Shown piece by piece: positions 18,104-33,616 of a stretch of 64,000 nucleotides of DNA. The DNA comes from Rhabdaerophilum sp. SD176 (GTDB taxonomy: Bacteria; Pseudomonadota; Alphaproteobacteria; Rhizobiales; Beijerinckiaceae): the NCBI RefSeq assembly GCF_030143245.1, contig NZ_JARJNS010000005.1, forward strand, positions 186,001 to 250,000, in the 5' to 3' direction. The notes beneath the pieces were generated by a model. The model ran no database searches. It worked only from the letters and a program-made list of their open reading frames with translations, and was not told the origin of the DNA. The translations under genes were made by a program, and so were the position numbers. Within the stretch, counting starts at the first letter, position 1. Each line of letters opens with the position of its first letter.

Positions 18104-19135
18104 ATGCTCGTTACCCCTCCCTATCTGATGTTCCTCGGCGATGTCGGAGATCAGCTTGCCGCCAAGACGGCTCATGGCATTGTCGACTGGCGACCCGAAT
18201 GGTGCCTGGGCCAGCGGCGCCTGCCGGGCTGCAAGGCCGATCTCGGCATCGCGGAGATGTCGATTGCCGAAGCAGCGGGCAAGGGGGCCCGGACGCTGAT
18301 CGTCGGCGTGGCCAATGCGGGCGGCATCCTGCCGGATCACTGGACGGCCGAGATCGTCGCCGCCATCGAGGCCGGGATGGATGTGGCCAGCGGCCTGCAT
18401 ACCCGGCTCGGCTCGAAGCCGGAGATCCGCGAGGCGGCGTCCCGTCACGGACGACAATTGCTGGATGTCCGGCATTCGGACCAGCGCTTCGATACCGGCA
18501 AGGGCACGAAGCGGCCCGGCCTGCGCCTGCTCACCGTCGGCACGGATTGCTCGGTCGGCAAGAAATACACCGCGCTGGCGCTCGAGCGCGGCATGCGCGC
18601 ACGCGGCATGGATGCCGATTTCCGGGCGACCGGCCAGACCGGCGTTTTCATCTCCGGCCGTGGCGTGGCCATTGATGCCGTGGTGGCGGATTTCATCTCC
18701 GGCGCGGTTGAATGGATCTGCCCGGCGGCTGCCGAGACCCATTGGGACCTGGTCGAGGGTCAGGGTTCTCTGTTCCACCCGTCCTTCGCCGGCGTCAGCC
18801 TCGGCCTGCTGCATGGGGCCCAGCCGGATGCCTTCGTGGTCTGCCATGAACCGACCCGCACCACGATGCGCGGCGTCAAGCAAACGCTGCCAGGCATTGC
18901 CGACGTGATCGACCTGACAATCCGCTGCGGGTCGCTCACCAATCCGGGCATCCGCCCGGTTGGCATCGCCATAAACACCGAGAAGCTTGGCGAAGCGGAG
19001 GCCCGCGCCCTGATTGCGGAAACCGCCGACCGCCATAAACTGCCCGCGACCGATCCGATCCGCTTCGGCGTGGAATCGATCATCGATCAGGTTCTTGCGG
19101 AGTTTCCGCATTCTGAAAACGGGAAGGCCCGCTGA
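18104..19135 (+). CDS. dgcN: DgcN family N-acetyltransferase (DUF1611), D-glutamate catabolism
   Basis: A 343-residue protein of the DUF1611 family, known as DgcN in the DgcN-DgcA route in which D-glutamate is N-acetylated, racemised and returned as an L-compound. An N-terminal Rossmann-like part (residues 1-130) is joined to a P-loop domain; the phosphate loop TVGTDCSVGKKYTALAL is at about residues 144-160, followed by an acidic switch in EGQGSLFHPSFAG. AAGGA eight bases before the ATG supports the start. The gene overlaps dgcA in a TGATG junction and is divergent from the LysR gene. Confidence 0.85.
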   Translation: MLVTPPYLMFLGDVGDQLAAKTAHGIVDWRPEWCLGQRRLPGCKADLGIAEMSIAEAAGKGARTLIVGVANAGGILPDHWTAEIVAAIEAGMDVASGLHTRLGSKPEIREAASRHGRQLLDVRHSDQRFDTGKGTKRPGLRLLTVGTDCSVGKKYTALALERGMRARGMDADFRATGQTGVFISGRGVAIDAVVADFISGAVEWICPAAAETHWDLVEGQGSLFHPSFAGVSLGLLHGAQPDAFVVCHEPTRTTMRGVKQTLPGIADVIDLTIRCGSLTNPGIRPVGIAINTEKLGEAEARALIAETADRHKLPATDPIRFGVESIIDQVLAEFPHSENGKAR

Positions 19136-20124
19136 TGCCGAAGCTCGATATCCGCGTTGAACGCTGGCCGATCGCCGGCACATTCACCATTTCGCGCGGT
19201 AGCCGCACCGAAGCGGTGGTCGTGGTGGTCGCGTTGCAGGAGGGGCCGGCCATCGGCCATGGCGAATGCGTGCCCTATGCGCGCTATGGCGAGAGCATCG
19301 AGGGGGTCGTCGCAGCCCTGGAGGCCTTGCGCCCGCAGATCGAGGCCGGCGTGAGCCGCGCCGGGATCCGCACGCTCCTGCCCGCCGGCGCCGCCCGCAA
19401 TGCGCTGGATTGTGCGCTCTGGCAGCTCGAGGCGAGCCGGGCCGGCCTGCCGCTGCATCAGCTTGCCGGCCTGCCGCCGCCCCGGCCCGTCACCACCGCC
19501 TACACGCTGAGCCTCGGGACGCCGGACACCATGTTCGAGGCGGCACGCAAGGCTTCTGCACGCCCGCTGCTGAAGATCAAGCTCGGCGGCGAGGGCGATG
19601 CCGAGCGGCTCGCTGCCGTGCGTGCCGGCGCGCCGGCTTCGACGCTTGTTGTCGATGCGAACGAGGCCTGGCACCGGGAAACGCTTGGCGCCAATCTCGC
19701 GGCCTGCGAGAGGGCCGGCGTTGCGCTGATCGAGCAGCCCATGCCGGCGGGAGAGGATGCCGCGCTGGCGGATATCCGCACGCCGATTGTCATCTGCGCC
19801 GATGAAAGCATCCATGATGCCGCCAGCCTCGGCCATCTTCCGCCCTGGTATGATGCGATCAACATCAAGCTCGACAAGACCGGCGGCCTGACCGACGCGC
19901 TGGAATTGCGCGATGCCGCCCGGGCGCGGGGTCTGAAGATCATGGTCGGCTGCATGCTCGGCACATCGCTCGCCATGGCGCCGGCCATCCTTCTCGCGCA
20001 GGGCGCGGAATTCGTCGATCTTGACGGCCCGCTCCTGCTGGCGAAGGACCGTGAGCCCGGCCTGATCTATCAGGGCAGCGAACTCGTGCCGCCGCTGGGC
20101 GCCGTGGGTGCCAACCCGCCCTGA
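19135..20124 (+). CDS. dgcA: DgcA family N-acetyl-D-glutamate racemase (enolase superfamily)
   Basis: A 329-residue enolase-superfamily protein of the muconate-cycloisomerase subgroup, close to L-Ala-D/L-Glu epimerases; the pairing with dgcN points to the N-acetyl-D-Glu racemase DgcA. Catalytic residues are visible: the KxK pair in LLKIKLGGEG, the metal ligands in VVDANEAW, LIEQPMP and ICADESI, and the second-face Lys in INIKLDKTGG. The start codon overlaps dgcN by one base (TGATG). The gene converges with the dipeptide transporter genes. Dipeptide epimerase activity remains an alternative. Confidence 0.85.
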   Translation: MPKLDIRVERWPIAGTFTISRGSRTEAVVVVVALQEGPAIGHGECVPYARYGESIEGVVAALEALRPQIEAGVSRAGIRTLLPAGAARNALDCALWQLEASRAGLPLHQLAGLPPPRPVTTAYTLSLGTPDTMFEAARKASARPLLKIKLGGEGDAERLAAVRAGAPASTLVVDANEAWHRETLGANLAACERAGVALIEQPMPAGEDAALADIRTPIVICADESIHDAASLGHLPPWYDAINIKLDKTGGLTDALELRDAARARGLKIMVGCMLGTSLAMAPAILLAQGAEFVDLDGPLLLAKDREPGLIYQGSELVPPLGAVGANPP

Positions 20125-20127
20125 GCC

Positions 20128-20883
20128 TCAGGCGGAGGCGAGGGCGACACGCCGTGAAGCAGCGATCAGTTCCTGCGTATAGGCATCCTGCCCGCCCTGC
20201 TTGCGCAGGGACTCGATATCGGCTTCCTCGACAATCCGGCCAAGCTTCATCACCGCCACGCGGCTGCACATATGGCCAACCACGGCGAGGTTGTGGCTGA
20301 CCAGCAGCATGGTCAGGCCGAGCCGAAGCTTGAGGTCCTGGAGCAGGTTCAGCACTTCGGCCTGGATCGAGACATCCAGCGCCGAGGTCGGCTCGTCCAG
20401 CAGCAGGATCCGCGGCTCGAGGATCAGCGCCCGCGCAATCGCCACACGTTGGCGTTGCCCGCCCGACAATTGATGCGGAAACCGGAAGCGGAAGCCGCCA
20501 TCCAGCCCAACCTCCGCCAGCGCGCGTTCGATCCGCCGGTCCGGCTGGTCGAGCCCGTGGATGGCCAGCGGCTCGGCAAGGATCGCATCGATCGTCATGC
20601 GGGGATGGAGGCTGGCGAACGGGTCCTGGAACACCATCTGCACCGAGCGGAAGAACGCCTTGTCTGGCCGCTGCGGCAGGGGATTCCCGTCGATCTCCAC
20701 CACACCGTCCCAGTTCCGGTTGAGGCCTGACAGGACGCGCAGGACGGTGGATTTTCCCGAGCCGGATTCGCCGACAAGGCCGAAGCTTTCTCCGGATCCG
20801 ACCATGAAGGACACGTCCTTGAGAACATGCGCCTCGCCGAAGCGCACGTTGAGGTTGCGGACGATAATCGAACCGGGTCCCAT
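20128..20883 (-). CDS. Dipeptide/oligopeptide ABC transporter ATPase (DppF-like)
   Basis: A 251-residue ABC ATPase, the second nucleotide-binding subunit of a peptide importer. Walker A is GESGSGKSTVL, signature LSGGQRQRVAIARAL, Walker B ILLLDEPTSALD, and the switch His is in VSHNLAVV. The start at 20883 lies one base after the stop of the DppD-like gene, so these two are coupled. This is the last gene of the leftward five-gene transporter operon and it converges with dgcA. It is a little shorter than most DppF proteins because the C-terminal peptide-transporter extension is brief. Confidence 0.9.
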   Translation of the reverse strand: MGPGSIIVRNLNVRFGEAHVLKDVSFMVGSGESFGLVGESGSGKSTVLRVLSGLNRNWDGVVEIDGNPLPQRPDKAFFRSVQMVFQDPFASLHPRMTIDAILAEPLAIHGLDQPDRRIERALAEVGLDGGFRFRFPHQLSGGQRQRVAIARALILEPRILLLDEPTSALDVSIQAEVLNLLQDLKLRLGLTMLLVSHNLAVVGHMCSRVAVMKLGRIVEEADIESLRKQGGQDAYTQELIAASRRVALASA

Positions 20884-20884
20884 C

Positions 20885-21733
20885 TCAGCCTCCCCGCAGC
20901 CAGGACTCATCGCGCTGCAGGGTCGCCAGCCGCCGGACCGGCCGGTCGAGATCGGGCAGGCAGCCCAGCAGCCCGCGCGTATAGGCATGCTGGCCCTTCG
21001 CCAGTTCCCGCGCCGGCAGGCTTTCCATAACCCGGCCGCCATACATTACGATCACCCGATCGCAGAAGGCGGAGACCAGCGGCAGGTCATGGCTGATGAA
21101 GATCAGCCCCATGCCGCGATCGGTCACCAGTTTTTCGAGAATGTCGAGGATCTGCGCCTGCACCGTCACATCGAGCGCCGAGGTCGGTTCGTCGGCGATC
21201 AGGACATCCGGTTCGCCGATCAGCATCATCGCGATCATCACGCGCTGTCCCATCCCGCCCGACACTTCATGCGGGTAAAGATCGAAGACGCGCGCGGGCT
21301 CCCGGATCAGCACATCCTCGAGCATCGCCAGCGCCCGGTCCCGGGCCTCGCTCTTGCCGGCCCGGCGATGCAGCTGGTACGCCTCGGCGATCTGCCGGCC
21401 CACACTCATCACCGGGTTGAGCGAGAATTTCGGATCCTGCATCACCATGGAGAGATGGCGCCCGCGCAGGCGCCGCCGGGCCTCGCCCGACATGCCGATG
21501 AGGTCCTGCCCCTTGAAGCGCATCGCATCGGCCTGCACTTCGCCGGGCCATGGCACGAGATCAAGCAGGGCCCGGCCGGTCATCGACTTGCCGGAACCGG
21601 ATTCGCCGACAATTGCCAGCTTCTCGCGGCCAAGGCTGAAGGACAGGCCGCGCACAGCCTCGACAATGCGGGTTGGCGTATGGAACCGGACCCGGAGATT
21701 GCTGACCTCGACGAGAGGCGGTTCTTCGGTCAT
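20885..21733 (-). CDS. Dipeptide/oligopeptide ABC transporter ATPase (DppD-like)
   Basis: A 282-residue ABC ATPase. Walker A is GESGSGKSMTGRAL, the signature is the DppD-type VSGGMGQRVMIAMML, Walker B is VLIADEPTSALD and the switch His is in ISHDLPLV. The start at 21733 (MTEEPPLVEVSNL) has GAGG upstream. It forms a heterodimer with the DppF-like subunit to drive peptide uptake across the inner membrane. It starts ten bases after the DppC-like permease gene. Confidence 0.9.
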   Translation of the reverse strand: MTEEPPLVEVSNLRVRFHTPTRIVEAVRGLSFSLGREKLAIVGESGSGKSMTGRALLDLVPWPGEVQADAMRFKGQDLIGMSGEARRRLRGRHLSMVMQDPKFSLNPVMSVGRQIAEAYQLHRRAGKSEARDRALAMLEDVLIREPARVFDLYPHEVSGGMGQRVMIAMMLIGEPDVLIADEPTSALDVTVQAQILDILEKLVTDRGMGLIFISHDLPLVSAFCDRVIVMYGGRVMESLPARELAKGQHAYTRGLLGCLPDLDRPVRRLATLQRDESWLRGG

Positions 21734-21743
21734 TCGCCGCTCC

Positions 21744-22634
21744 TCACTGGGCATCGAGAACGTCCCGCAGGCCATCCCCGAGCAGGTTGAAGCCGAGCGC
21801 GACAAGGCAGATGGCGAGGCCCGGAAAGGCCGCGACCCACCATTGGTCGAAGATGAACTCGCGCCCGGTGGCGATCATCGCGCCCCATTCCGGCAAGGGC
21901 GGCTGCGCGCCGAGGCCGAGAAAGCCGAGACCGGCCGCCGTGAGGATGATGCCGGCCATGTCCAGCGTGGTCCGGACAATGACCGACGAAAGGCACATCG
22001 GCACGACATGCTTGAGAATGATCCGTCCATGCCCTGCGCCCTGCAGCCGGACCGCGGCGATGTAATCGGCATTGCGGATGACCAGCGTCTCCGCCCGGGC
22101 CACCCGGGCATAGGGAGGCCAGGCCGTGCAGGCAATGGCGATCACGGCATTCTCGATGCCCGGCCCCAGCACGGCCACAAAGGCCAAAGCCAGCACCAGG
22201 CGCGGAAAGGCCAGGAACACATCGGTCACGCGCATCAGCACGGTATCCACCCAGCCACCGAAATAGCCGGCCACGGTACCGATCATCAGCCCGACAGGTC
22301 CGACCGAGATCACGACCAGCACGACGATGGCGAGGGTGATCCGCGCGCCATGGATGATCCGGCTGAAAATGTCGCGCCCCAGCGCATCCGTGCCGAACCA
22401 GTGCGTCGCTGAGGGCGGCAGCAGGCGCTGCGACAGGTTCTGGGCCAGCGGGTCATAAGGCGCGATCAGCGGCGCGAAGGCCGCGATCAGCAGTAATGCC
22501 ACCACAATGATCAGCCCGATCAGCGCAAGCGGGTTTTTCCGCAGCGCCAGCCATTGCCGGTAGGCCTGCCCGATCCGGGCCTGCCGCCGCGAGGCCGGGG
22601 TTTCTGTCGTCAAGTAGGCATAGAGACCGGCCAT
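21744..22634 (-). CDS. Dipeptide ABC transporter permease (DppC-like)
   Basis: A 296-residue inner-membrane permease with an N-terminal extension, one early transmembrane helix (ALIGLIIVVALLLIAAFAPLI) and the five-helix BPD_transp_1 core. The EAA loop that contacts the ATPases is recognisable around YIAAVRLQGAGHGRIILKHV. The family motif FGTDALGRDIFSRIIHGARI is present before the core. It pairs with the DppB-like permease, from which it is three bases away. Confidence 0.9.
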   Translation of the reverse strand: MAGLYAYLTTETPASRRQARIGQAYRQWLALRKNPLALIGLIIVVALLLIAAFAPLIAPYDPLAQNLSQRLLPPSATHWFGTDALGRDIFSRIIHGARITLAIVVLVVISVGPVGLMIGTVAGYFGGWVDTVLMRVTDVFLAFPRLVLALAFVAVLGPGIENAVIAIACTAWPPYARVARAETLVIRNADYIAAVRLQGAGHGRIILKHVVPMCLSSVIVRTTLDMAGIILTAAGLGFLGLGAQPPLPEWGAMIATGREFIFDQWWVAAFPGLAICLVALGFNLLGDGLRDVLDAQ

Positions 22635-22637
22635 GAC

Positions 22638-23663
22638 TTACCTCGCCCGCGGGTCGAAGGCCCGCCCGATCATGTCGCTCAGCAGGTTGATGCCGACGAA
22701 GATCAGCCCGACGACGATGGTTCCTCCCAGCACGGCATTCATGTCCGCATTGAGCAGGGAATTGGTGATGTAGCGGCCGAGGCCCGGCCAGGCGAAGACA
22801 GTTTCGGTCAGCACCGAGCCTTCGAGCAGGTTGGCATAGGACAATGCGATCACAGTCAGCAGCGGCACGATCGCGTTGCGCAGCGCATGGCCCCAGACCA
22901 CGCGGCGCTCGCTCAGCCCCTTGACCCGCGCCGTCATGACATAGGGCTGCTGCAGCTCGGTGATCATGAAGGAGCGTGTCATGCGGCTGATATAGGCCGT
23001 CGAGAACAGGCCCAGCACGGCCGAGGGCAGGACGAGATGCGAGACGGCGTTCCGGAACGCATCCCATTCGCCCTGCAACGCGCAATCCAGCAGGAGAACC
23101 CCGGTAATGGGCTGCACGAAATCCTGGTAGGACACCGCAATCCGCCCGGGGCCGGAAACCCAGCCCAGCTTGGCATAGAAGATCAGCAGGCCCATCAGGC
23201 CAAGCCAGAAGATCGGGATGGAATAGCCGAAAAGCCCGATGAACCGGGCGATATGGTCGGGCCATCGCCCCTGTTTCGTCGCCGCCAGCACGCCGAGCGG
23301 GATGCCGAGGCAAATGCCGATCAACGTGCCCAGCGTCGCCAGTTCCAGTGTGGCCGGGAAGACCCGCTTGATATCCTCGATGACGAGGTTCGAGGTCAGG
23401 ACCGACTTGCCGAAATCACCCTGCACCACTTTCTGGAGATAAAGCCAGAACTGCACGAGGACGGGCTTGTCGAGCCCCATATCCTGGCGCGCCTTTTCGT
23501 AGACATCCGGTCTTGCATTGTCCCCCACGACCGCGAGGACCGGATCGACCGGCATGACCCGGGCGATGAAGAAGGTGACAGCGAGCAGGCCGAGGATCGT
23601 CACCAGCACGGTGATCAGCTCCCTGGCGACAGTTCGGGCACCCCGGCTGAGGGCATGGGACAT
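22638..23663 (-). CDS. Dipeptide ABC transporter permease (DppB-like)
   Basis: A 341-residue permease of the DppB class. An N-terminal helix (LITVLVTILGLLAVTFFIARV) is followed by the DppB-type periplasmic region (MGLDKPVLVQFWLYL, GDFGKSVLT) and the permease core, with the EAA loop in YVMTARVKGLSERRVVWGHALRN. It lies 89 bases downstream of the substrate-binding protein gene; a strong hairpin stands in that gap. Together the permeases form the channel of the peptide importer. Confidence 0.9.
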   Translation of the reverse strand: MSHALSRGARTVARELITVLVTILGLLAVTFFIARVMPVDPVLAVVGDNARPDVYEKARQDMGLDKPVLVQFWLYLQKVVQGDFGKSVLTSNLVIEDIKRVFPATLELATLGTLIGICLGIPLGVLAATKQGRWPDHIARFIGLFGYSIPIFWLGLMGLLIFYAKLGWVSGPGRIAVSYQDFVQPITGVLLLDCALQGEWDAFRNAVSHLVLPSAVLGLFSTAYISRMTRSFMITELQQPYVMTARVKGLSERRVVWGHALRNAIVPLLTVIALSYANLLEGSVLTETVFAWPGLGRYITNSLLNADMNAVLGGTIVVGLIFVGINLLSDMIGRAFDPRAR

Positions 23664-23690
23664 GGGATGTCTCGCGATGGGCGGAAGGGA

Positions 23691-23723
23691 AATCGCCGCC
23701 CGGCACGGGGCCGGGCGGCGATT
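23691..23723 (-). other. Intercistronic stem-loop between the binding-protein and permease genes
   Basis: Perfect fourteen-base arms AATCGCCGCCCGGC and GCCGGGCGGCGATT around a five-base loop. It lies between the substrate-binding protein stop at 23753 and the DppB-like start at 23663. There is no proper T run after it on the minus strand, so it is more likely a partial terminator or a 3' stabiliser that lets the binding-protein message outlast the rest, as is common in importer operons. Confidence 0.65.
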
Positions 23724-23752
23724 CGGGGAGCGTCACGCCATCAGGCGCCCGC

Positions 23753-25366
23753 TCATTCCTTCGAGATCGTATGGTAGAAGTTCGTGTCCGATGTCGGACC
23801 CACGACGAAGCCCTTCGCGTTGGACCGCGCCGCCGCCACTTCGATCTGCTGGAACATGATCACGAAGGGCGAGGTCTTCTGGTGCTCGCGCTGCAGGGCC
23901 TCGTAGACCGCCTTGCGCTTGTTGGCATCGCGCTCGAGCACGTTGGCCTGCGTGGTCTTGGTCATTTCGGGGATGTCCCATGCATTGCGCCAGGCCAGCG
24001 TCTTCGACTTCGCGTTATCCGTGTTGTCGACATTGATCGCGAAAGTCTCGGCATTGGTATGCGGATCGAGATAATCCGGGCCCCACTGGCCGATATAGAT
24101 GTCGTGCTGACGGGCGCGATACTTGGTCAGCGTGGCGCGGCCATCGCCGGGGATCAGCTCCAGCTTGATGCCAGCCTGTGCCCATCCCGCCTGGATCGCC
24201 TGCGCGATATCGGTGATCGGCGAGGTCGAGCGGACATCCATCGTCACGGTGAAGCCGTTCGGCAGGCCGGCCTTGGCGAGCAGCTCCTTCGCCTTGGCGA
24301 CGTCGAACTTGTACGGCTTGTCGGTGATCGCCCCGAGGAAGCCTTTCGGCAGGAAGCTCTGGTGCTGCTGGAACGTGCCCTGCACGATGTTCTTCTCGAT
24401 GGCTTCGTAATCGACGAGCCATTTCACCGCCTCACGCACTTCCGGCTTGGCGAAATTCGGGTTTTTCGTGTTCAGCCCGAGATAGAGGATATAGCCCTTG
24501 TCGCCCTGCACGGTCGTGATCTGCGGGTTGCCCTTGACGGCCGCCAGCTGGTCTTTCGAAAGGTTGCGGGCGAAATCGATATCGCCCTTTTCGAGCAGCA
24601 GGCGCTGGGAGGCCGGCTCCGCGACATGGCGGACGATGACACGGCGGTTCTTCGGCGCGCCCTTGAACCAGTTCGGATTGGCCTCGAGCGCATATTGCTC
24701 GTTCGGCCGCCAGGCGCGGACGATATAGGCACCGGTGCCGGCCGAATTGGCCTTCATCCAGGCATTGCCGAAATCGCCGTCCTTCTCGTTGGCCTTTACC
24801 GTCTTCGAATCGACGATCGAGGCGACGCCCGAGGTCAGGCAGTTCAGGAAGAAGGTCGGCGCGAAGGGCTTCGACACCGTGATGCTCACGGTGCTGTCAT
24901 CCACCGCCTTCACCTTCTCGAGCACGTTTTCCTTGGTGAAGCCGAACTGCGCCAGGATGAAGCCCGGAGACTTGTTGAGCACGATCGCCCGCTGGAAGGA
25001 ATAGACCACATCGGCCGCGGTCAGCGGGTTGCCGGAATGGAACTTCACGCCCGGGCGCAGCTTGAACGTATAGGTCAGGTTGTCATCCGAAACGGTCCAG
25101 CTCTGGGCGAGATCGCCGACCAGCGCATTGCCGTTCTTGATGTCCACGCCGATCAGCTTGTCATAGACATTCGCGCCGACCTCGACGCCCGAGAACTCGA
25201 AGGCTTCGGCCGGATCGAGCGAGATGATATCGTCGATCTGCTTGGCCATGACGACCGTGTCCTTCGGCGTCTGGCCGAGGGCCGGGCCCATGGCGGTCAG
25301 GGAAGAAGCCGCCATCAGGGCAGCGGAAAGGCCCAGCGCATGGCGGCGGGACAGGTTGATTTTCAT
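23753..25366 (-). CDS. Dipeptide/oligopeptide ABC transporter substrate-binding protein (family 5)
   Basis: A 537-residue periplasmic binding protein (SBP_bac_5). The start at 25366 has GGGAG upstream; a Tat-like signal (LSRRHALGLSAALMAASS) precedes the cut near residue 32. Core markers are LDPAEAFEFSGVEVGANVYDKL, the LTYTFKLRPGVKFHSGNPLTA segment and IYIGQWGPDYLDPHTNAE. It collects peptides for the permease-ATPase genes downstream. Its neighbours dgcN-dgcA and the D-amino-acid transaminase suggest D-amino-acid-containing peptides, for example from murein, but nickel or other ligands of the family are not excluded. Confidence 0.88.
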   Translation of the reverse strand: MKINLSRRHALGLSAALMAASSLTAMGPALGQTPKDTVVMAKQIDDIISLDPAEAFEFSGVEVGANVYDKLIGVDIKNGNALVGDLAQSWTVSDDNLTYTFKLRPGVKFHSGNPLTAADVVYSFQRAIVLNKSPGFILAQFGFTKENVLEKVKAVDDSTVSITVSKPFAPTFFLNCLTSGVASIVDSKTVKANEKDGDFGNAWMKANSAGTGAYIVRAWRPNEQYALEANPNWFKGAPKNRRVIVRHVAEPASQRLLLEKGDIDFARNLSKDQLAAVKGNPQITTVQGDKGYILYLGLNTKNPNFAKPEVREAVKWLVDYEAIEKNIVQGTFQQHQSFLPKGFLGAITDKPYKFDVAKAKELLAKAGLPNGFTVTMDVRSTSPITDIAQAIQAGWAQAGIKLELIPGDGRATLTKYRARQHDIYIGQWGPDYLDPHTNAETFAINVDNTDNAKSKTLAWRNAWDIPEMTKTTQANVLERDANKRKAVYEALQREHQKTSPFVIMFQQIEVAAARSNAKGFVVGPTSDTNFYHTISKE

Positions 25367-25693
25367 GACAGACGCTCCCGAATTGGGCCGGGCGCTTGAG
25401 CGCGTTCGGCTTATCTGCGGATCGGAGAATCTGTTGACGCCATTGTCAATGGCTGTTGACGGCGCCAGCCCCGATTTTGGGCCGGCAAGGGCCGCTTCCG
25501 CCATGGGGACGGCCTCTTGTTTTTTCTGCGCAGCGGCGGGATCGGGCCTGAACTGCCTGTGACCGGCGGGCGGCTGACAAGAATTCGCGCCTTTCTGGCC
25601 GCGGGACTCATCCAAACCGGACCATTTGCCGTAAACCGCGTTGAACACCGGAATCTTGCCCTGAAGGCACCGGGACATCGACGTGGAGGCGTG
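25367..25693. other. Divergent gap between the peptide-transporter operon and the RegA-like gene
   Basis: 327 bases with no gene that I recognise. The notable content is the palindrome with flanking repeats at 25432-25461, placed to control the transporter promoter. The remainder looks like ordinary leader sequence. Confidence 0.5.
25432..25461. promoter_or_regulatory. Palindrome flanked by direct repeats upstream of the peptide-transporter operon
   Basis: The palindrome GCCATTGTCAATGGC (25439-25453) has perfect seven-base arms about a central T. The octamer TGTTGACG flanks it at 25432-25439 and 25454-25461. It is 66 to 95 bases upstream of the binding-protein start, a normal operator or activator distance. 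The RegA-like regulator is divergent from here and is a candidate binder, but no link is shown. Confidence 0.45.
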
Positions 25694-26284
25694 ATGTCGT
25701 TGCGCATTGGAACCGATCCGACCGGAATAGGCGGAAGCACTGGCGGTATGGCGGCAGCGGGCCGCCGGACCCTCGTCATCGTCGACAATGACCGGCTTGC
25801 CGTGTCGCGGCTGCTGCGGGGGCTGGAGCCCCGCGGCTTCGATGTCGAGGTCATCGAATCGATCGGCGAGGCTATCGCCGTGATCAGCCGGAATGCACCC
25901 GATTGCCTTGTCGTGGAATCACGCCTGCCCGATGGCAACGGGCTGGATGTTATCGTCGCGCTGAAGCGGCATCGTCCGGATGCGCGGGCCGTGGTCCTGA
26001 CCGGCTACGGTAATATCGCGACCGCCGTGGCGGCCATCAAGCGCGGCGCGGCTGATTATCTGCCGAAGCCGGCCGATATCGAGGATGTCTTTGCCGTCCT
26101 TGTCGGCGAGGAACGGGTCCGCGTTGCCGTGCCGGAAAACCCCATGTCGGCTGATCGCGTGCGTTGGGAGCATATCCAGCGGATTTTCGAATTGTGCGAC
26201 CGGAATGTCTCCGAAACCGCGCGCCGGCTGAACATGCATCGACGGACGCTCCAGCGCATCCTTGCGAAACGCGCGCCGCGTTGA
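25694..26284 (+). CDS. ActR/PrrA/RegA-type response regulator with Glu at the phosphorylation site
   Basis: About 196 residues from the ATG at 25694, which has GGAGG upstream. Residues 25-140 form a CheY-like receiver; residues 150-196 form the Fis-type helix-turn-helix (NVSETARRLNMHRRTLQRI) that is almost identical to ActR/RegA proteins. In the receiver the strand that normally ends in the phospho-acceptor Asp reads CLVVESRLPDGNGLDV: residue 75 is Glu (GAA at 25916-25918). The acidic pair is D31-N32 in place of Asp-Asp. T103 (LTGYGN) and K125 (PKPAD) are kept. No sensor kinase is nearby. It may act as a constitutively active or phosphorylation-independent redox-type regulator. Confidence 0.85.
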   Translation: MSLRIGTDPTGIGGSTGGMAAAGRRTLVIVDNDRLAVSRLLRGLEPRGFDVEVIESIGEAIAVISRNAPDCLVVESRLPDGNGLDVIVALKRHRPDARAVVLTGYGNIATAVAAIKRGAADYLPKPADIEDVFAVLVGEERVRVAVPENPMSADRVRWEHIQRIFELCDRNVSETARRLNMHRRTLQRILAKRAPR

Positions 26285-26743: not shown

Positions 26744-26781
26744 GCGCCCTGCCTGTCACCCCCTGCTGACAGGCAGGGCGC
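26744..26781 (+). promoter_or_regulatory. Strong leader hairpin upstream of the AMP-binding-like gene
   Basis: Perfect fifteen-base arms GCGCCCTGCCTGTCA (26744-26758) and TGACAGGCAGGGCGC (26767-26781) around an eight-base loop. It ends 45 bases before the ATG at 26827. The tract after it (TCTTCTCTCCC) is pyrimidine-rich without a T run, so it may work as an attenuator, a factor-dependent terminator or an operator. Confidence 0.5.
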
Positions 26782-26826: not shown

Positions 26827-28350
26827 ATGGCCGAATGGCCTGCCTTGCTCTCCCGTGATCTCGCCACAACCGGCGCTGAGCTGGCGCTCGCGGATGCCTC
26901 GGGCGATCTGTCCCGCGCGGATCTCGATGCCCGGGTCAAGCTCTGGGCGACGATCCTCGCGAGGCGAAGTGTCCTGCCGGGCGATCGCATCCTCCTTCTT
27001 CTTCCGCAAGGCATGGACGGCTGGGTCGCCTTGCTGGCGGTCCTCGCGCTGGGGGCAACCGCCATGCCCTTCCCGCCCGATCTGTCTACGGCCGATCTCT
27101 GTCATATCGTCCGTCTCTGGCGTCCCTCCGCCTGCCTGACCTTTGAGCCGTCCATGGCCGGCGGCAAGGAGGTCGGGCTGTCGCCGGAGCGCATCCATTT
27201 CATCGAAACACTCCCACGGAAATGGCCCCGGAGCCGGCCTCCGGGGGAAGCCGGTCGGGAAAGCCCGTTGCGCTTCGCAATGCGCGGGCAGGTCCTGATG
27301 GCGTCAGGGTCCCTGACGGGCGAGGCGGGCTACCTGCATGGGATCGGGCCGGTCCTGGCCAATGCGCGGCGTCTGGTGAGGTCCCTTGATCTGGCCCCAG
27401 CTCTCTCCGGCCTCCTCGCCATGCCGATGACGCATTGGGCCGGCCTCGTCGTCGGTCTGGGCCTCCTCGATGCAGGCCGGCCCGTCTGGCTGGCCGATCC
27501 GGAGAATGCCCGAGTTATCCCCGAAGAATGCGGCCCCGTGGCCTGCTTCACGACCGTGCAGGCATGGCGGCGCTGGCTCGCCCGGCCGGACGGAGCCGGG
27601 GAAAGCGGCTCCATCCGGCATCTGGTCGCCACGTCCGGAAGCCTCGGCCGGGCCATGCTTGGCCAGACCCGCAGCCGGATCGATGCTGCACCGATCGATT
27701 GCGTCTACGGAACATCTTTTCACCTCGCTGCGGCACGGCTTCGCATCGGCTCGGAACTCCCGCCCCCCGGCTGCATCGGCTATCCCCTGCCAGGGACCGA
27801 AATCCGTGTCATGCGCCGGCCGCGGGGGGAGGCTCGGCCCGGGCAGGCCGGGTATCTGGTGCATTCCGGCGACAGCGGCATCCCCTGCCGGCCTTGTGGC
27901 AGCGAGCCGGCAACGGATCCGCCGTTCGACCAGGGCGAGATCGGCTGGCGGGAGGCAGACGGGCGGCTGTTCCGGTTGCCCTCCCCGAAGGATCTCATCC
28001 GCACGGCCGGGCGCATCCTCGCGCCGGAGGATCTCGAGCAGCAGGTCCTTGATAGCGGGCTTGTTGACGAGGCTTTCGCCTTCGGTGTTCCGCACCCGCT
28101 TCTCGAAGAGGCCGTCGTGCTTGTCGCGGTGGCACGTCCGCGCGTGACGCCGCACCTGCTGCGCGAATTCTGCCGCCAGACGCTTCCGGACTTTATGGTG
28201 CCGCACCGGATCGAGCTGCATGCCCGTCTGCCGGCCGAGGCGCTGGCCCAATCGGGCAGGCACCATTTTCGGCTTCGCTATGCGGGCCTCTATGGCCAGG
28301 CCGCTACATCATGTCCGGGTAACGACCCTCCGGGTCGAGCAGGCTGCTGA
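26827..28350 (+). CDS. Degenerate ANL (acyl-CoA synthetase/AMP-binding) family protein
   Basis: 507 residues with the outline of an AMP-forming acyl-CoA synthetase. The C-terminal hinge region is clear: RLFRLPSPKDLIRTAGRILA with EDLEQQVLD, then the small-domain strand EEAVVLVAVARP. But the phosphate loop (normally TSGTTGxPK) reads LMASGSLTGEAGYLHG, and the catalytic Lys near the end (normally in PxxxxGK) is absent: LPAEALAQSGRHHFRLRY. It is therefore likely inactive or much changed. GGAGGGG precedes the start. Its 3' end overlaps the convergent mmcB gene by 47 bases. Confidence 0.7.
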   Translation: MAEWPALLSRDLATTGAELALADASGDLSRADLDARVKLWATILARRSVLPGDRILLLLPQGMDGWVALLAVLALGATAMPFPPDLSTADLCHIVRLWRPSACLTFEPSMAGGKEVGLSPERIHFIETLPRKWPRSRPPGEAGRESPLRFAMRGQVLMASGSLTGEAGYLHGIGPVLANARRLVRSLDLAPALSGLLAMPMTHWAGLVVGLGLLDAGRPVWLADPENARVIPEECGPVACFTTVQAWRRWLARPDGAGESGSIRHLVATSGSLGRAMLGQTRSRIDAAPIDCVYGTSFHLAAARLRIGSELPPPGCIGYPLPGTEIRVMRRPRGEARPGQAGYLVHSGDSGIPCRPCGSEPATDPPFDQGEIGWREADGRLFRLPSPKDLIRTAGRILAPEDLEQQVLDSGLVDEAFAFGVPHPLLEEAVVLVAVARPRVTPHLLREFCRQTLPDFMVPHRIELHARLPAEALAQSGRHHFRLRYAGLYGQAATSCPGNDPPGRAGC

Positions 28351-28762
28351 GGCGGGCGGATGCCACGCGCGCCAGCCGGATCGTGAGTGCCTTCCGGGTC
28401 GCGGCAGCCAGCGGCCGGGGCGGAGCCTCGCGCAGGATTTCCGCGCCGAATCCGTCGGCGAGGATCAGGCCTGTCTCCTCCGGGAAGATCGCCAGCGGCA
28501 TATCGGGATGGGTCGCGAAGTAGAAATGCTCGCAATAGGGCAGGTAGTCCCGCCACTTGGTGTCGGCCCGGAAATCTTCCACCGACGACTTGATCTCGAT
28601 GATGTGAATGGCCCCGCGTTCCGACAGGGCAACGAGATCGGCCCGGCGCCCGTTCGGCAGGGACAATTCCGGAAAGACCGACAGCCCCCTCTGGGCAAAA
28701 TGCCGGGCAAGGCCTCGCGCCAGCAGCCGGGCGAGCCCGTCACGGGCCGGCCCGCCGCTCAT
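28304..28762 (-). CDS. MmcB family DNA repair protein (PD-(D/E)XK nuclease fold)
   Basis: A 152-residue protein of the MmcB family, a damage-inducible alphaproteobacterial protein of the PD-(D/E)XK nuclease-like fold. The core motif is seen: Asp in RADLVAL, then EIKSS in IHIIEIKSSVEDF. It acts on DNA in the cytosol, reported as part of a mutasome-independent repair response in Caulobacter-type bacteria. Its start overlaps the stop of the upstream GMC oxidoreductase gene (ATGA), and its 3' end overlaps the convergent AMP-binding-like gene. Confidence 0.87.
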   Translation of the reverse strand: MSGGPARDGLARLLARGLARHFAQRGLSVFPELSLPNGRRADLVALSERGAIHIIEIKSSVEDFRADTKWRDYLPYCEHFYFATHPDMPLAIFPEETGLILADGFGAEILREAPPRPLAAATRKALTIRLARVASARLSSLLDPEGRYPDMM

Positions 28763-30384
28763 CGCGTGTCGGCCATCAGCATGGCCGCGCCCTTCTCGGC
28801 GATCATCAATGTGGGCGAATTCGTATTGCCGGAGGTGATCGTCGGCATCACGGAAGCGTCGATCACGCGCAGGCCCTCGACGCCGATCACCGCGAGGCGT
28901 TCATCGACCACGGCCAACGGGTCGTCCCGTCGGCCCATCCGGGCCGTTCCGACCGGGTGAAAGATCGTCGTGCCGAGATCACCCGCCGCGCGGATCAGGT
29001 CTGCCTCGCTCCGGATCTCCGGGCCGGGGCGGTATTCCTCCGGCTCATAGGGGCGCAAAGCCTCGGAGGTCACAATTCGCCGCACCAGCCGCAGCGAATC
29101 CGCCGCCACCTGCCGGTCTTCCTCGGTGGCCAGATAATTCGGGTCGATTACCGGCGCCTCGAACGGGTCGGCGCTGGCCAGCCGGATCTCGCCCCGGCTC
29201 GTAGGCCGCAGGTTGCAGACCGAGGCCGTGAAGGCCGGGAAGGGATGCAGCCCCTCGCCGAACTTGTCGAGCGAGAGCGGCTGGACATGGAATTGCAGGT
29301 TCGGCATGGCATAGCGGGCATCCGACCGGGTGAACACGCCGAGTTGCGAGGGCGCCATGGTCATCGGCCCGCTGCGGAACAATGCGAATTCCACGCCCAT
29401 CCAGGCGCGCTTCATCAGGTTGGCATAATCAGCATTGAGCGTCCGGACATTGCGGACCTTGTAGATCGGCCGGATCTGGAGATGGTCCTGCAGGTTCTGC
29501 CCGACGCCGGGCCGATCCGCCACGACATCGAGGCCGAAGCCGCGCAGGGTTTCGCCGCGCCCGATCCCGCTGAGCATCAGCAGTTTCGGCGAGGCGACGG
29601 CGCCGGCCGCCAGCACGACGCTCCGCCGCGCCCGGACGATCCGACTTTGGCCATCCTGGCGGAAGGCCAGGCCGGAAGCCCGGTTCCCGTCAAACAGGAT
29701 CCGCTCAGCCTCGGCCCCGGTCAGGATGGTAAGGTTCGGCCGGCTCCGGACCGGATCGAGGAAACCCCGCGCGGCGCTCCAGCGCAGGCCCTTCTTCTGG
29801 TTGACCTGAAAATAGGCCGAGCCCTCGTTCGAGCCGCGGTTGAAATCCTCGACCTTGGGGATGCCGCATTGCTCCGCGGCATCGCGGAAGCGGTCGAGGA
29901 TCTCCCAGCGCACGCGGGGCGGCTCGACGCGCCATTCGCCGCCCGCGCCATGCAGGGCATCGGCCCCGGCGAAGAAATCCTCGTGCTGGCGGAAATAGGG
30001 CAGCACATCGTCCCAGCTCCAGCCCGACAGGCCGAATTGCGCCCAGCCATCGTAATCCGTTGACTGGCCACGCATGTAGATCATGCCGTTGATGGCCGAG
30101 CAGCCGCCCAGCACCTTGCCCCTCGGGTAGAGCAGCGAGCGGCCGTTGAGCCCGGCCACCGGCGCTGTCTTGAACAGCCAGTCGGCCCGCGGATTCCCGA
30201 TCAGGAAGAGATAGCCGACCGGAATGTGGAACCAGATGTAGCGATCGTTTCCACCCGCCTCGAGCAGGAGAACCCGGCGCGCGGGATCGGCGCTCAGCCG
30301 GTTCGCCAGCAGGCAGCCGGCCGTACCGGCGCCCACGATGATGTCGTCGAATTCCCCTGCCGGATCTGCCGGGATTGTGCCCAT
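28759..30384 (-). CDS. GMC family FAD-dependent oxidoreductase (choline dehydrogenase-like)
   Basis: A 541-residue flavoprotein of the glucose-methanol-choline family. The FAD motif IIVGAGTAGCLLANRLS opens the protein; the GMC signature follows in GKVLGGCSAINGMIYMRG; the active-site His is in TTIFHPVGTARMG and the partner Asn in GNTNSPTLMIAEKGA. It oxidises an alcohol group; the substrate (choline, polyethylene glycol, aliphatic alcohols) is not fixed by sequence. The start at 30384 is followed by the family N-terminus. Its stop overlaps mmcB. RND efflux genes lie 91 bases upstream on the same strand. Confidence 0.88.
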   Translation of the reverse strand: MGTIPADPAGEFDDIIVGAGTAGCLLANRLSADPARRVLLLEAGGNDRYIWFHIPVGYLFLIGNPRADWLFKTAPVAGLNGRSLLYPRGKVLGGCSAINGMIYMRGQSTDYDGWAQFGLSGWSWDDVLPYFRQHEDFFAGADALHGAGGEWRVEPPRVRWEILDRFRDAAEQCGIPKVEDFNRGSNEGSAYFQVNQKKGLRWSAARGFLDPVRSRPNLTILTGAEAERILFDGNRASGLAFRQDGQSRIVRARRSVVLAAGAVASPKLLMLSGIGRGETLRGFGLDVVADRPGVGQNLQDHLQIRPIYKVRNVRTLNADYANLMKRAWMGVEFALFRSGPMTMAPSQLGVFTRSDARYAMPNLQFHVQPLSLDKFGEGLHPFPAFTASVCNLRPTSRGEIRLASADPFEAPVIDPNYLATEEDRQVAADSLRLVRRIVTSEALRPYEPEEYRPGPEIRSEADLIRAAGDLGTTIFHPVGTARMGRRDDPLAVVDERLAVIGVEGLRVIDASVMPTITSGNTNSPTLMIAEKGAAMLMADTR

Positions 30385-30475
30385 TGCTCGTTCTCCCCGG
30401 GGAACAGGTTTAGGCAGGCCCCGGGAAGGCGGCAAGGTTCGATTTTGCCGCCCCGTTCTGCATCGTTTGAGACCG

Positions 30476-33400
30476 TCAGGCCGCAGCCTGCGTGCTTGGC
30501 TCCGATCCTTCGCTGTCATTGGCCGGCGTGATGTCGGCCGCGCGCCGGCTGGCCTTTTCCTCGTCCCGGATCCGCTTCCGGAACCAGAAGGAGTAGAGGG
30601 CAGGCAGGAAGAGCAGCGTCATGAAGGTGGCCACGAAAAGCCCCCCCATCACCGTGACGGCCATTGGTCCCCAGAAGGCGCTGCGTGAGAGCGGGATCAT
30701 CGCCAGGATAGCCGTCATGGCCGTCAGGATGACCGGCCGCGCCCGCCGGATCACCGATTCAACGATGGCTTCCCGCATAGGCAGGCCACGATCCATGTCA
30801 TGCTGCACCTGGTCGACAAGGATGATCGAGTTGCGCATGTCCATCCCGCCGAGCGCGATCAGGCCGAGCAGCGCCACGAAGCCGAAGGGCATGCCCGACA
30901 GGTTCAGCGCCAGCGAAGCACCGATCACGCCGAGCGGCACGCTCATCAGCACCAGGAAGACCTTGGTGAAACTCTGCAGCTGCACCATCAGCAGCAGCAG
31001 CATCACCATGAACATGACCGGGAACAGCTTGAAGATCGATTCGTTGGCTTTGGCCGATTCCTCGATCGCCCCGCCGATCTGGATCTGGTAGCCCAGCGGA
31101 ACCGCATCGCGGATCGGCTTCAGCGCGGTCCAGATCTCGGTGGTGACATCCGGCGCCTGGACGCCGTCGATAATGTCCGCCCGGACAGTGATCGACATGT
31201 CGCGGCTGCGGCGCCAGAGGATCGGTTCCTCGTAATCCTGCGTGATCCGCGCCACTTGGGCGAGCGGCACCGGCACGCCATTGCGGGCGGTGAGGGTGAA
31301 ATCGCCCAACCGGGTCGGATCAAGCCGCTCGCCCGGCACGGCGCGGGCGACGACCTGCACCTGTTCGGTGCCGTCGCGGATCGTCGTCACCGTGACACCC
31401 GAGATCAGCGTCTGCAGGGTCTGCGCGATCGCGCTCGGATCGAGCCCGAAGGCGCGGGCCCGGTCCTGATCGACCACAAGGCGGATGGCCGGCATCAGCT
31501 CGTTCCAGTCGAGATGCGGGTCGATCGCCTTGTTGTTCCGGAGCATCGTATCCCGGACCTGATAGGCGATGCGGCGCACCTCGGCCGGATCTGTGCCGAC
31601 AACGCGGAACTGTACCGGGAACCCGACTGGCGGGCCGAAATTGAACCGGTCGACGCGCACCCGGGCGGCCGAGAGCGCCCCTTCCCGGACCCGGGTTTCG
31701 AGCCGGGTCTTGATCCGCTCCCGCGCCGGGACATCCTTCGAGAGGATGACGATCTGCGAGAAGGCCTCGTTCGGCAGGACTTGGTTCAGCCCGAGCCAGA
31801 ACCGCGGCGAGCCTTGCCCGATATAGGTCGTGGCATGGATGATATCGGGATCGCCCTTGAGCAAAGCTTCGGCCTCGCGGGCGACGGCGTTGGTCGCGGT
31901 GATCGACGACCCCTCCGGCAGGCGCATCTCGAGGAACAGTTCCGGCCGCTCCGACAGCGGGAAGAATTGCTGCGGCACCCGCGAGAAGCCGGCAACGGCG
32001 ATCGCGAAGACGGCAGCCGTGGCCCCGAGCGCCTTGATCCGGTGCGTGACGCACCAGGTGACGATCCGGCGGAGCAGCATGTACCAGCGCCCTTCGTACA
32101 GGGAGGCATGGCCTTCACCATGGCCCTTCTTGAAATCGGGCAGGATCTTCACGCCGAGATAGGGGGTGAAGATCACGGCGACAAACCACGAGGCGACGAG
32201 CGCGATTCCGACAATATACAGGATGCTGCCCGTATATTCGCCGACCGCCGAGCTCGCGAGCCCCACGGGGAGGAAGCCCGCTGCAGTGATCAGGGTGCCG
32301 GTCAGCATCGGGAAGGCCGTGGAATCCCACGCATAGGCGGCCGCCTTCATCCGGTCCCAGCCCTCCTCCATTTTGACGATCATCATCTCGACCGCGATGA
32401 TGGCGTCATCAACGAGAAGGCCAAGCGCGATGATCAGGGCGCCGAGCGAGATGCGGTGCAGGTCGATCCCGGCGAAATCCATCACGGTGAACACGATGCC
32501 GAGCACGAGCGGCACCGAGGTGGCCACCACGATTCCGGTCCGCCAGCCCAAAGTCAGGAAAGAGACGCCAAGGACAATCACAAGCGCCTCGACGAAGGCC
32601 TTGACGAATTCGTAGACGGAATCGCCGACCACCTTCGGCTGGTTGGCGATCCGGTCGATCTGGAACCCGACCGGCACCGTTTCCTGGAATTCGGACAGCG
32701 CCTTCTCGATATCCTTCCCGAGGGTCAGGATATTCGCGCCCTTGAGCATGACGACGCCGACGCCGATCGCGGGCTTGCCATCCTGTCGGATCAGGAAATC
32801 GCTCGGGTCCTCGAAGCCGCGTGTCACATTGGCGATATCGCCAAGCCGGATCGTCCGGCCATTCGCCTCGACCGGGATCGCTGCCACGGCCTCCGTGCCG
32901 GTGAGCGCACCGGTCACGCGGACGGGGATTCGTTGGGCCTGCGTCTCGAACGTGCCTGCGGGCGTGACGGCATTCTGCCGGGCGATTGCGTCGAAGATCG
33001 CGCTGGCGGGAATGCCGAGGGTTGCCAGCTTGGTATGGCTGAACTCGACAAAGATCTGCTCGTCCTGTGCGCCGTAGAGCGTCACCTTGGTGACGTTCGG
33101 CACCTTCAGCAAGGCCCGCTTCAGGTCCTCGCCAATCCGCTTGAGCTGGGCATAGTCAGCGCCGTCGCCGGTGATCATGGTGAGGATGGAATCGACATCG
33201 CCGAACTCGTCATTGACATTCGGCCCGATCACGCCCGAGGGCAGCTCGGGTTTCAGATCGCCCAGCTTCTTCCGCATCTGGTAGAAGAGTTCGGGCACCT
33301 GCCGCGCGGGCGTGTAATCCTTGAACTCCATCTGCAAGGCAGCGAAGCCCGGCTTGTTGTAGGTCAGGACGCGGTTGAAATAGGGCAGTTCCTGCAATTT

Positions 33401-33616
33401 CTTCTCGATCCGGTCGGTCACCTGGTTCTGCATCTCGAACGCGGTTGCGCCCGGCCAGGCCACGGTGATCACGCTGACCTTGATCGTGAAGGACGGGTCC
33501 TCGGCCCGGCCGAGGCGCATGTAGGACAGGGTTCCGACCGCGCCGATCAGCAGGATCAGGAAAAGCACAAGCGTCTGGTGCCGGACGGCCCAGGCCGAGA
33601 GATTGATGCCGCGCAT
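30476..33616 (-). CDS. Efflux RND transporter permease subunit
   Basis: A 1046-residue inner-membrane RND pump with twelve transmembrane segments and two large periplasmic loops. The proton-relay aspartates are in LGLLVDDAIIAVEMM of helix 4; in helix 10 the usual Lys is Arg (GGMDMRNSIILVDQ), as in the subgroup related to small-molecule or heavy-metal-free efflux pumps. The N-terminus MRGINLSAWAVRHQTLVLF is typical of this subgroup. It begins four bases after the adaptor gene and forms a tetR-adaptor-pump operon. No outer-membrane factor is encoded here, so a TolC-like partner must come from elsewhere. Confidence 0.93.
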   Translation of the reverse strand: MRGINLSAWAVRHQTLVLFLILLIGAVGTLSYMRLGRAEDPSFTIKVSVITVAWPGATAFEMQNQVTDRIEKKLQELPYFNRVLTYNKPGFAALQMEFKDYTPARQVPELFYQMRKKLGDLKPELPSGVIGPNVNDEFGDVDSILTMITGDGADYAQLKRIGEDLKRALLKVPNVTKVTLYGAQDEQIFVEFSHTKLATLGIPASAIFDAIARQNAVTPAGTFETQAQRIPVRVTGALTGTEAVAAIPVEANGRTIRLGDIANVTRGFEDPSDFLIRQDGKPAIGVGVVMLKGANILTLGKDIEKALSEFQETVPVGFQIDRIANQPKVVGDSVYEFVKAFVEALVIVLGVSFLTLGWRTGIVVATSVPLVLGIVFTVMDFAGIDLHRISLGALIIALGLLVDDAIIAVEMMIVKMEEGWDRMKAAAYAWDSTAFPMLTGTLITAAGFLPVGLASSAVGEYTGSILYIVGIALVASWFVAVIFTPYLGVKILPDFKKGHGEGHASLYEGRWYMLLRRIVTWCVTHRIKALGATAAVFAIAVAGFSRVPQQFFPLSERPELFLEMRLPEGSSITATNAVAREAEALLKGDPDIIHATTYIGQGSPRFWLGLNQVLPNEAFSQIVILSKDVPARERIKTRLETRVREGALSAARVRVDRFNFGPPVGFPVQFRVVGTDPAEVRRIAYQVRDTMLRNNKAIDPHLDWNELMPAIRLVVDQDRARAFGLDPSAIAQTLQTLISGVTVTTIRDGTEQVQVVARAVPGERLDPTRLGDFTLTARNGVPVPLAQVARITQDYEEPILWRRSRDMSITVRADIIDGVQAPDVTTEIWTALKPIRDAVPLGYQIQIGGAIEESAKANESIFKLFPVMFMVMLLLLMVQLQSFTKVFLVLMSVPLGVIGASLALNLSGMPFGFVALLGLIALGGMDMRNSIILVDQVQHDMDRGLPMREAIVESVIRRARPVILTAMTAILAMIPLSRSAFWGPMAVTVMGGLFVATFMTLLFLPALYSFWFRKRIRDEEKASRRAADITPANDSEGSEPSTQAAA

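Follow-up and report, generated by a model that had tools for sequence, protein, structure and literature searches.

The window analysed here, a stretch of 64,000 nucleotides from the genome of Rhabdaerophilum sp. SD176, encodes a regulator of the ActR/PrrA/RegA family with a glutamate (Glu75) at the position of the aspartate that is phosphorylated in RegA. How does such a response regulator work? The original prediction, made on the same DNA, held that an Asp-to-Glu change often mimics phosphorylation, and that the protein may be always on or controlled by another signal. The features relevant to this question are the following (window positions, with the basis of each assignment in brackets). 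Genomes, loci, and families are designated below by our own identifiers, the window genome being G000.

20128-25366, minus strand: dipeptide-type ABC transporter operon, at the place of the relatives' ActS gene (gene-order comparison)
25685-25689, plus strand: GGAGG, Shine-Dalgarno-like, 5' of the ATG (read from the sequence)
25694-26284, plus strand: gene of the Glu-type ActR/PrrA/RegA-family regulator, 196 aa, the sole ActR-family match in the genome (NF033791 profile)
25784-25792, plus strand: pocket codons Asp31-Asn32-Asp33, with Asn replacing the second pocket acid (comparison loci)
25904-25906, plus strand: Cys71, in strand beta3, four residues N-terminal of the acceptor position (7/7 of the Glu group, 0/234 others)
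25916-25918, plus strand: Glu75 (GAA), phospho-acceptor position (alignments to 3RQI and other receivers)
26000-26002, plus strand: Thr103, conserved switch residue (comparison loci)
26066-26068, plus strand: Lys125, conserved pocket lysine (comparison loci)
26141-26281, plus strand: Fis-type helix-turn-helix DNA-binding domain, residues 150-196 (likeness to 1UMQ; dN/dS)
26195-26197, plus strand: Cys168, equivalent of Rhodobacter capsulatus RegA Cys156 (RegA peptide VYELCDR; comparison loci)
28304-33616, minus strand: downstream block of a small conserved gene, a GMC oxidoreductase, and an RND permease (common to the examined ActS-bearing genomes)

The protein matches the NCBIfam model NF033791 (ActR/PrrA/RegA) over residues 25-196 with 265.4 bits against a cut-off of 250, and its receiver domain matches PF00072 with 71.8 bits; the HTH_8 profile matches right at its cut-off (22 bits). 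The DNA-binding end, with a Fis-type domain and a conserved recognition helix, had been described as nearly identical to that of ActR/PrrA/RegA proteins, and indeed 47 of 51 residues are as in the solved 1UMQ chain (counted on the sequence alignment). In the pocket, the first acid (Asp31) and Tyr122 are retained, as are Thr103 (ACC) and Lys125 (AAG), both correctly read in the original prediction; Thr103, Tyr122, and Lys125 are conserved in all seven proteins of the Glu group defined below. The second acid is Asn32 (AAT), again as proposed, where 233 of 234 comparison loci have Asp and one is unreadable.

The placement of Glu75 at the acceptor position agrees with all the alignments considered. 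The best solved match over receiver and DNA-binding domain is 3RQI, whose title mentions a phosphorylated aspartic acid and whose acceptor Asp aligns with Glu75; among the receivers of the same genome, 16 of 26 loci could be aligned under the applied threshold, each of them with Asp in that column. A misalignment, with the acceptor Asp lying elsewhere in the protein, is thus excluded. A predicted model built on a 43-row alignment (mean pLDDT 80.2, against 44.8 for the single-sequence fold) places Glu75 at the end of strand beta3 and Cys71 at its start, and a Foldseek search with this model matched receivers, with 3RQI as the top structural match.

The absence of a RegB/PrrB-type kinase, previously stated for the window, holds across the whole genome as searched: the ActS/PrrB/RegB model gave 25 matches, none above the cut-off, the best at 72.6 bits against 350. 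A second, normal RegA was also sought in the genome; the query matches itself at 100% and otherwise 26 loci at 21-38% identity. Neither a concealed second ActR nor a distant ActS kinase was found in these genome-wide searches. That the protein cannot use the usual Asp phosphorylation and is without a RegB-type kinase is well supported. Of the acceptor and the two pocket acids only Asp31 remains; the receiver fold, by profile and by structure, is kept, with both the acceptor and the second acid replaced, as in pseudo-receivers. The protein is an ActR by descent and, because the acceptor and the kinase are both missing, no longer a demonstrated two-component regulator by function.

We then considered the distribution of this form in the genus. 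Among 17 genomes, full ActR is present in 13: six carry ActR with Asp at positions 32 and 75 and ActS directly upstream of it, and seven carry a Glu-type ActR and no ActS (the Glu group: G000, G108-G111, G065, and G099). The remaining four (G026, G101, G102, and G103) have neither full ActR nor ActS, so that 4 of the 11 genomes without ActS also lack a full ActR. Position 32 in the Glu group is Asn in six and Pro in one. Codon 75 shows synonymous variation only (GAA/GAG) across the seven genomes, which excludes a sequencing error at 25916-25918, and none of the 13 ActR genes has an internal stop. In an unrooted rpoB tree, which covers 16 of the 17 genomes, the six ActS-bearing genomes split from the ten ActS-less ones with support 100/100. 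The genome outside this tree is G102, which gave no rpoB match; it is listed as complete, yet it also lacks matches to full ActR and to the transporter binding protein, and its placement or assembly may be doubtful.

Gene order, read in three of the six ActS-bearing genus genomes, suggests how the kinase was lost. G106 and G104 have the order up707-up398-up256-up430-ActS-ActR-MmcB-GMC-RND-MFP, where MmcB is a small conserved gene that we take to be MmcB-like; NCBIfam gave no match for its protein. G094 shares ActS, ActR, and the genes upstream with these two, while MmcB was not found and a gap precedes RND. In all seven Glu genomes, the ABC transporter operon lies immediately upstream of ActR and MmcB-GMC-RND-MFP lie downstream, a shared block indicating that ActR sits at its ancestral locus. 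In G101, which has no ActR, the operon is flanked by GMC on one side and by up430-up256-up398-up707 on the other, and these flanks mark the former actS site. In G026, the operon is next to MmcB-GMC and ActR is absent; searches for ActR remnants at the locus in G026 and G101 gave chance-level matches only. The arrangement was not seen in G103, where the closest homologue of the binding protein (47% identity) lies at another place in the order. Five of the six ActS-bearing genomes have a binding-protein homologue (72-75% identity to that of the operon) at another locus, accompanied by the remaining operon genes in the two inspected (G104 and G107). Taken together, this suggests a single replacement of ActS by the transporter operon in a common ancestor. 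A horizontal replacement of ActR is disfavoured by the gene order, the gene tree being weak on its own.

Other observations were made around the locus. The N-acetyl-D-Glu racemase gene dgcA (19135-20124; 465 bits, cut-off 400) adjoins the peptide ABC operon, and the two may serve the uptake and conversion of D-amino-acid peptides. In the 90 bases that precede the actR start codon (25604-25693), 78 positions are invariant in five Glu-group genomes, more than in the mid-intergenic stretch; they may belong to a leader, an operator, or an N-terminal extension. Between actR and the downstream block lies an AMP-binding ligase-like gene (26827-28350), fast-varying (67-87% identity) and restricted, among the genomes examined, to G000 and the four genomes closest to it. 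Ahead of this gene, a GC-rich inverted repeat of 15 pairs (26744-26781) is terminator-like by a simple scan, for which 1.6 sites are expected by chance and two were found.

Outside the genus, two more genomes have ActR without ActS. In G675, both the acceptor position and position 32 are Glu, while its congeners G766 and G792 have ActS and an acceptor Asp; G029 has Ser at position 32 and retains the acceptor Asp, and its congener G097 has ActS and an acceptor Asp. In both, ActR adjoins the genes that flank ActS-ActR in their relatives (G029 is also without two neighbouring genes), which is consistent with an in-place deletion of ActS. The receiver of G675 is 54% identical to that of G792 against 39-44% to three Glu-group proteins. 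A tree of 51 rows groups G675 with its congeners (83/74, not starred), and a clade uniting it with the Glu group is not rejected either (p-AU 0.471). Judged by gene order and receiver identity, the kinase loss in G675 is probably independent of that in the Glu group. All three kinase-loss lineages have a changed second acid, and two of the three have Glu as the acceptor residue; since G029 lost ActS but keeps Asp, Glu is not a necessary outcome.

The wider surveys covered the class, the family, and the order. Among 387 genomes of the class (at least 90% complete; E <= 1e-55 for ActR and E <= 1e-50 for ActS; up to eight ActR and four ActS candidates scored per genome), ActR was found in 209 and ActS in 208, and ActR without ActS only in the window genome, the other 208 of the 209 having ActS at E <= 1e-50. 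Of the 208 ActS matches, 203 are above the curated cut-off. Residues were read in this survey at 60 chosen loci among the matches listed, plus low scorers. In the family and order, ActS was searched for in 80 genomes (72 of the 90 other family genomes with ActR, and eight of the order; G001 and G008 are counted in both this and the class survey), and it was absent in two, G675 and G029. A Glu-type profile run on 397 genomes of the order scored 355 bits in G000 and 319 in G065 and then fell to 275. In all, 243 ActR loci were read, second copies being left out, and the 234 outside the Glu group, G675, and G029 have the acceptor Asp without exception; these comparison loci come from similarity-favouring searches and include a few repeats (e.g., G008 twice). 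Of the first 138 (80 genome_contigs, 30 family, 28 order), five (L030, L040, L052, L231, and L240) show no ActS within the stretch around the locus, a check at the level of the stretch only. As for second copies, that of G095 (G095:C10; L333, 4031-4546, minus strand) has Arg32 and keeps the acceptor Asp, and the sole ActS found in that genome adjoins the other ActR copy; G438 has a tandem pair of ActR genes next to ActS (G438:C29; L339, 1621-2744, minus strand).

We also compared the constraint acting on ActR with and without the kinase. By the NG86 method (sums over 10 of 10 pairs per group), receiver dN/dS is 0.058 in five of the seven Glu genomes and 0.048 in five of the six Asp genomes; for the DNA-binding domain, the values are 0.007 and 0.017, respectively. 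The more distant Glu members have receivers 57-59% identical and DNA-binding domains 89-94% identical. The ActR gene tree keeps the Glu-type and Asp-type proteins of the genus apart, and their union is not rejected (p-AU 0.398). In the tree of 117 ActR rows, in which the bootstrap had not settled, the four longest terminal branches are G675, G099, G065, and G029, all kinase-less. The kinase-bearing families f42, f20, and f28 are on long stems as well, so that fast change is not peculiar to kinase loss. These sequence comparisons are coherent with change following the kinase loss, succeeded by constraint in at least the five close Glu genomes.

Two residues mark the Glu group: Cys71, present in 7/7 of its proteins, in 0/234 others, and absent from G675 and G029, and Pro79, in 7/7 and 1/234. 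Cys168 is found in 7/7 and in 233/234 others, the remaining one being unreadable; two or more extra cysteines elsewhere occur in 47 of the 234 other proteins. In phosphate-free R. capsulatus RegA, Cu2+/O2 drives a disulfide dimer at Cys156 that binds DNA (PMC9147068). A phosphate-free input is therefore already present in the family, and the other signal first envisaged may act on the Glu-type ActR, which keeps the equivalent cysteine; RegA itself is phosphorylated by its kinase RegB.

Given the lack of the Asp and of the kinase, together with the purifying selection, we infer that the Glu-type ActR would work without Asp phosphorylation. The explanation to which we give about even chances is that of a kinase-independent pseudo-receiver, with Glu75 as a probable phosphomimetic and an activity that would be constitutive; "always on" is the likeliest mechanism on the sequence evidence. 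After the loss of ActS, its place probably being taken by the transporter operon in a common ancestor, Glu75 would reach Thr103 and Lys125 and keep the receiver in a phosphorylated-like, dimer-prone state, and the nearly unchanged helix-turn-helix would bind ActR sites without phosphorylation. The amount of ActR protein would then determine the output, perhaps together with Cys168 oxidation, with the classical two-component function lost and DNA binding retained. The 6 + 7 + 4 distribution in the genus, the Glu in the ActS-less G675, the low receiver dN/dS with synonymous-only change at codon 75, and the G101 operon between both flanks of the old actS site all count for this explanation. Furthermore, receivers that lack the Asp have Glu in its place more often than any other residue (26%; PMC4395418), and an Asn at the second acid position is common among pseudo-receivers (PMC12632262). 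Counting against it, full ActR is absent in G101, G026, G102, and G103, so the regulator is dispensable in close relatives; the operon was not seen at the actS site in G103; and in the pseudo-receiver ChxR, replacing the Glu did not abolish DNA binding (PMC4395418). The proposal that Asp-to-Glu mimics phosphorylation therefore stands in part: the change often activates receivers but not always, an acceptor Glu may activate or may need further changes, and in some pseudo-receivers the activity is not due to it (PMC4395418, PMC12632262).

Four alternatives to this explanation were considered. The protein could be a direct redox regulator, its activity set by oxidation of Cys168, possibly with Cys71, and Glu75 serving only fold or dimer competence. 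The disulfide dimer of RegA, the conservation of Cys168, and the restriction of Cys71 to the Glu group favour this reading, which we nevertheless consider rather unlikely: Cys168 is near-universal with or without the kinase, so its retention is not special, additional cysteines are not rare in the family, and Cys71, which opens beta3 in the model, is probably buried there, may be a plain core substitution, and is missing from both G675 and G029. We find it similarly doubtful that Glu75 is neutral or locks the receiver off, with the protein acting as an unphosphorylated ActR at a subset of sites. Asp-to-Glu alone is indeed often insufficient in CheY, PhoB, and Spo0A (PMC4395418), norC of Bradyrhizobium japonicum needs RegR and not RegS (the authors consider cross-talk from another kinase; PMC4064962), and repression of fdp by unphosphorylated PrrA has been suggested (PMC7561615). 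Yet Glu appears specifically in two kinase-loss lineages and is constant in seven genus genomes despite synonymous change, where a neutral site should drift.

Two further readings remain. The long terminal branches of the kinase-less proteins and the four ActS-less genomes without full ActR would fit a relic en route to loss, in which the receiver drifts after kinase loss and the DNA-binding end is kept temporarily. This is improbable: the dN/dS of the receiver in the five close Glu genomes is similar to the low value of the kinase-bearing ones, the 13 genus genes are free of internal stops and all keep the pocket Thr and Lys, and long stems in kinase-bearing families mean that long branches are not proof of decay. 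Least credible, and very improbable, is that a non-cognate kinase or a small phosphodonor modifies another residue; the 25 histidine-kinase-like matches in the genome offer candidates, but every one is far under the ActS cut-off, and with acceptor and second pocket acid both changed, normal transfer to Asp is not expected. Beyond this locus, we advance as quite speculative the idea that loss of ActS repeatedly makes ActR a self-sufficient one-component redox regulator, with a rebuilt pocket, an active-like receiver lock, and sensing by its own cysteines (Cys168; here also Cys71).

Compared with the ActR/PrrA/RegA family, the window protein shares the full-length match, the architecture, the near-identical DNA-binding domain, the Thr, Tyr, and Lys of the pocket, and Cys168; it differs in the Glu acceptor, the Asn second acid, Cys71, Pro79, and the lack of an ActS/RegB in the genome. 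With pseudo-receivers such as ChxR, it shares the Glu acceptor, the replaced second acid, the orphan gene, and the DNA-binding output (PMC4395418, PMC12632262), but here sister species within the genus still have the ancestral pair of Asp and kinase. Pseudo-receivers of the Glu type form an established class, whose characterised members are mostly orphans, and their activation, including whether the acceptor Glu causes activity, is an open question (PMC12632262). A Glu-type pseudo-receiver in the ActR/RegA family appears to be new; among the matches listed from the open-access literature, there was no report of a Glu-type, lost-kinase, or Asp-less ActR/RegA.

For such genes, the annotation "redox response regulator" says more than may be assumed. 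One locus in one genus presents the states before (Asp with kinase), after (Glu without kinase), and lost, and the DNA-binding domain is conserved, so that a comparison of them could use the same promoters. G675, as a second and probably independent case, and G029, as a counter-case, make the pattern testable. The locus could thereby show a two-part signalling system turning into a one-part regulator.
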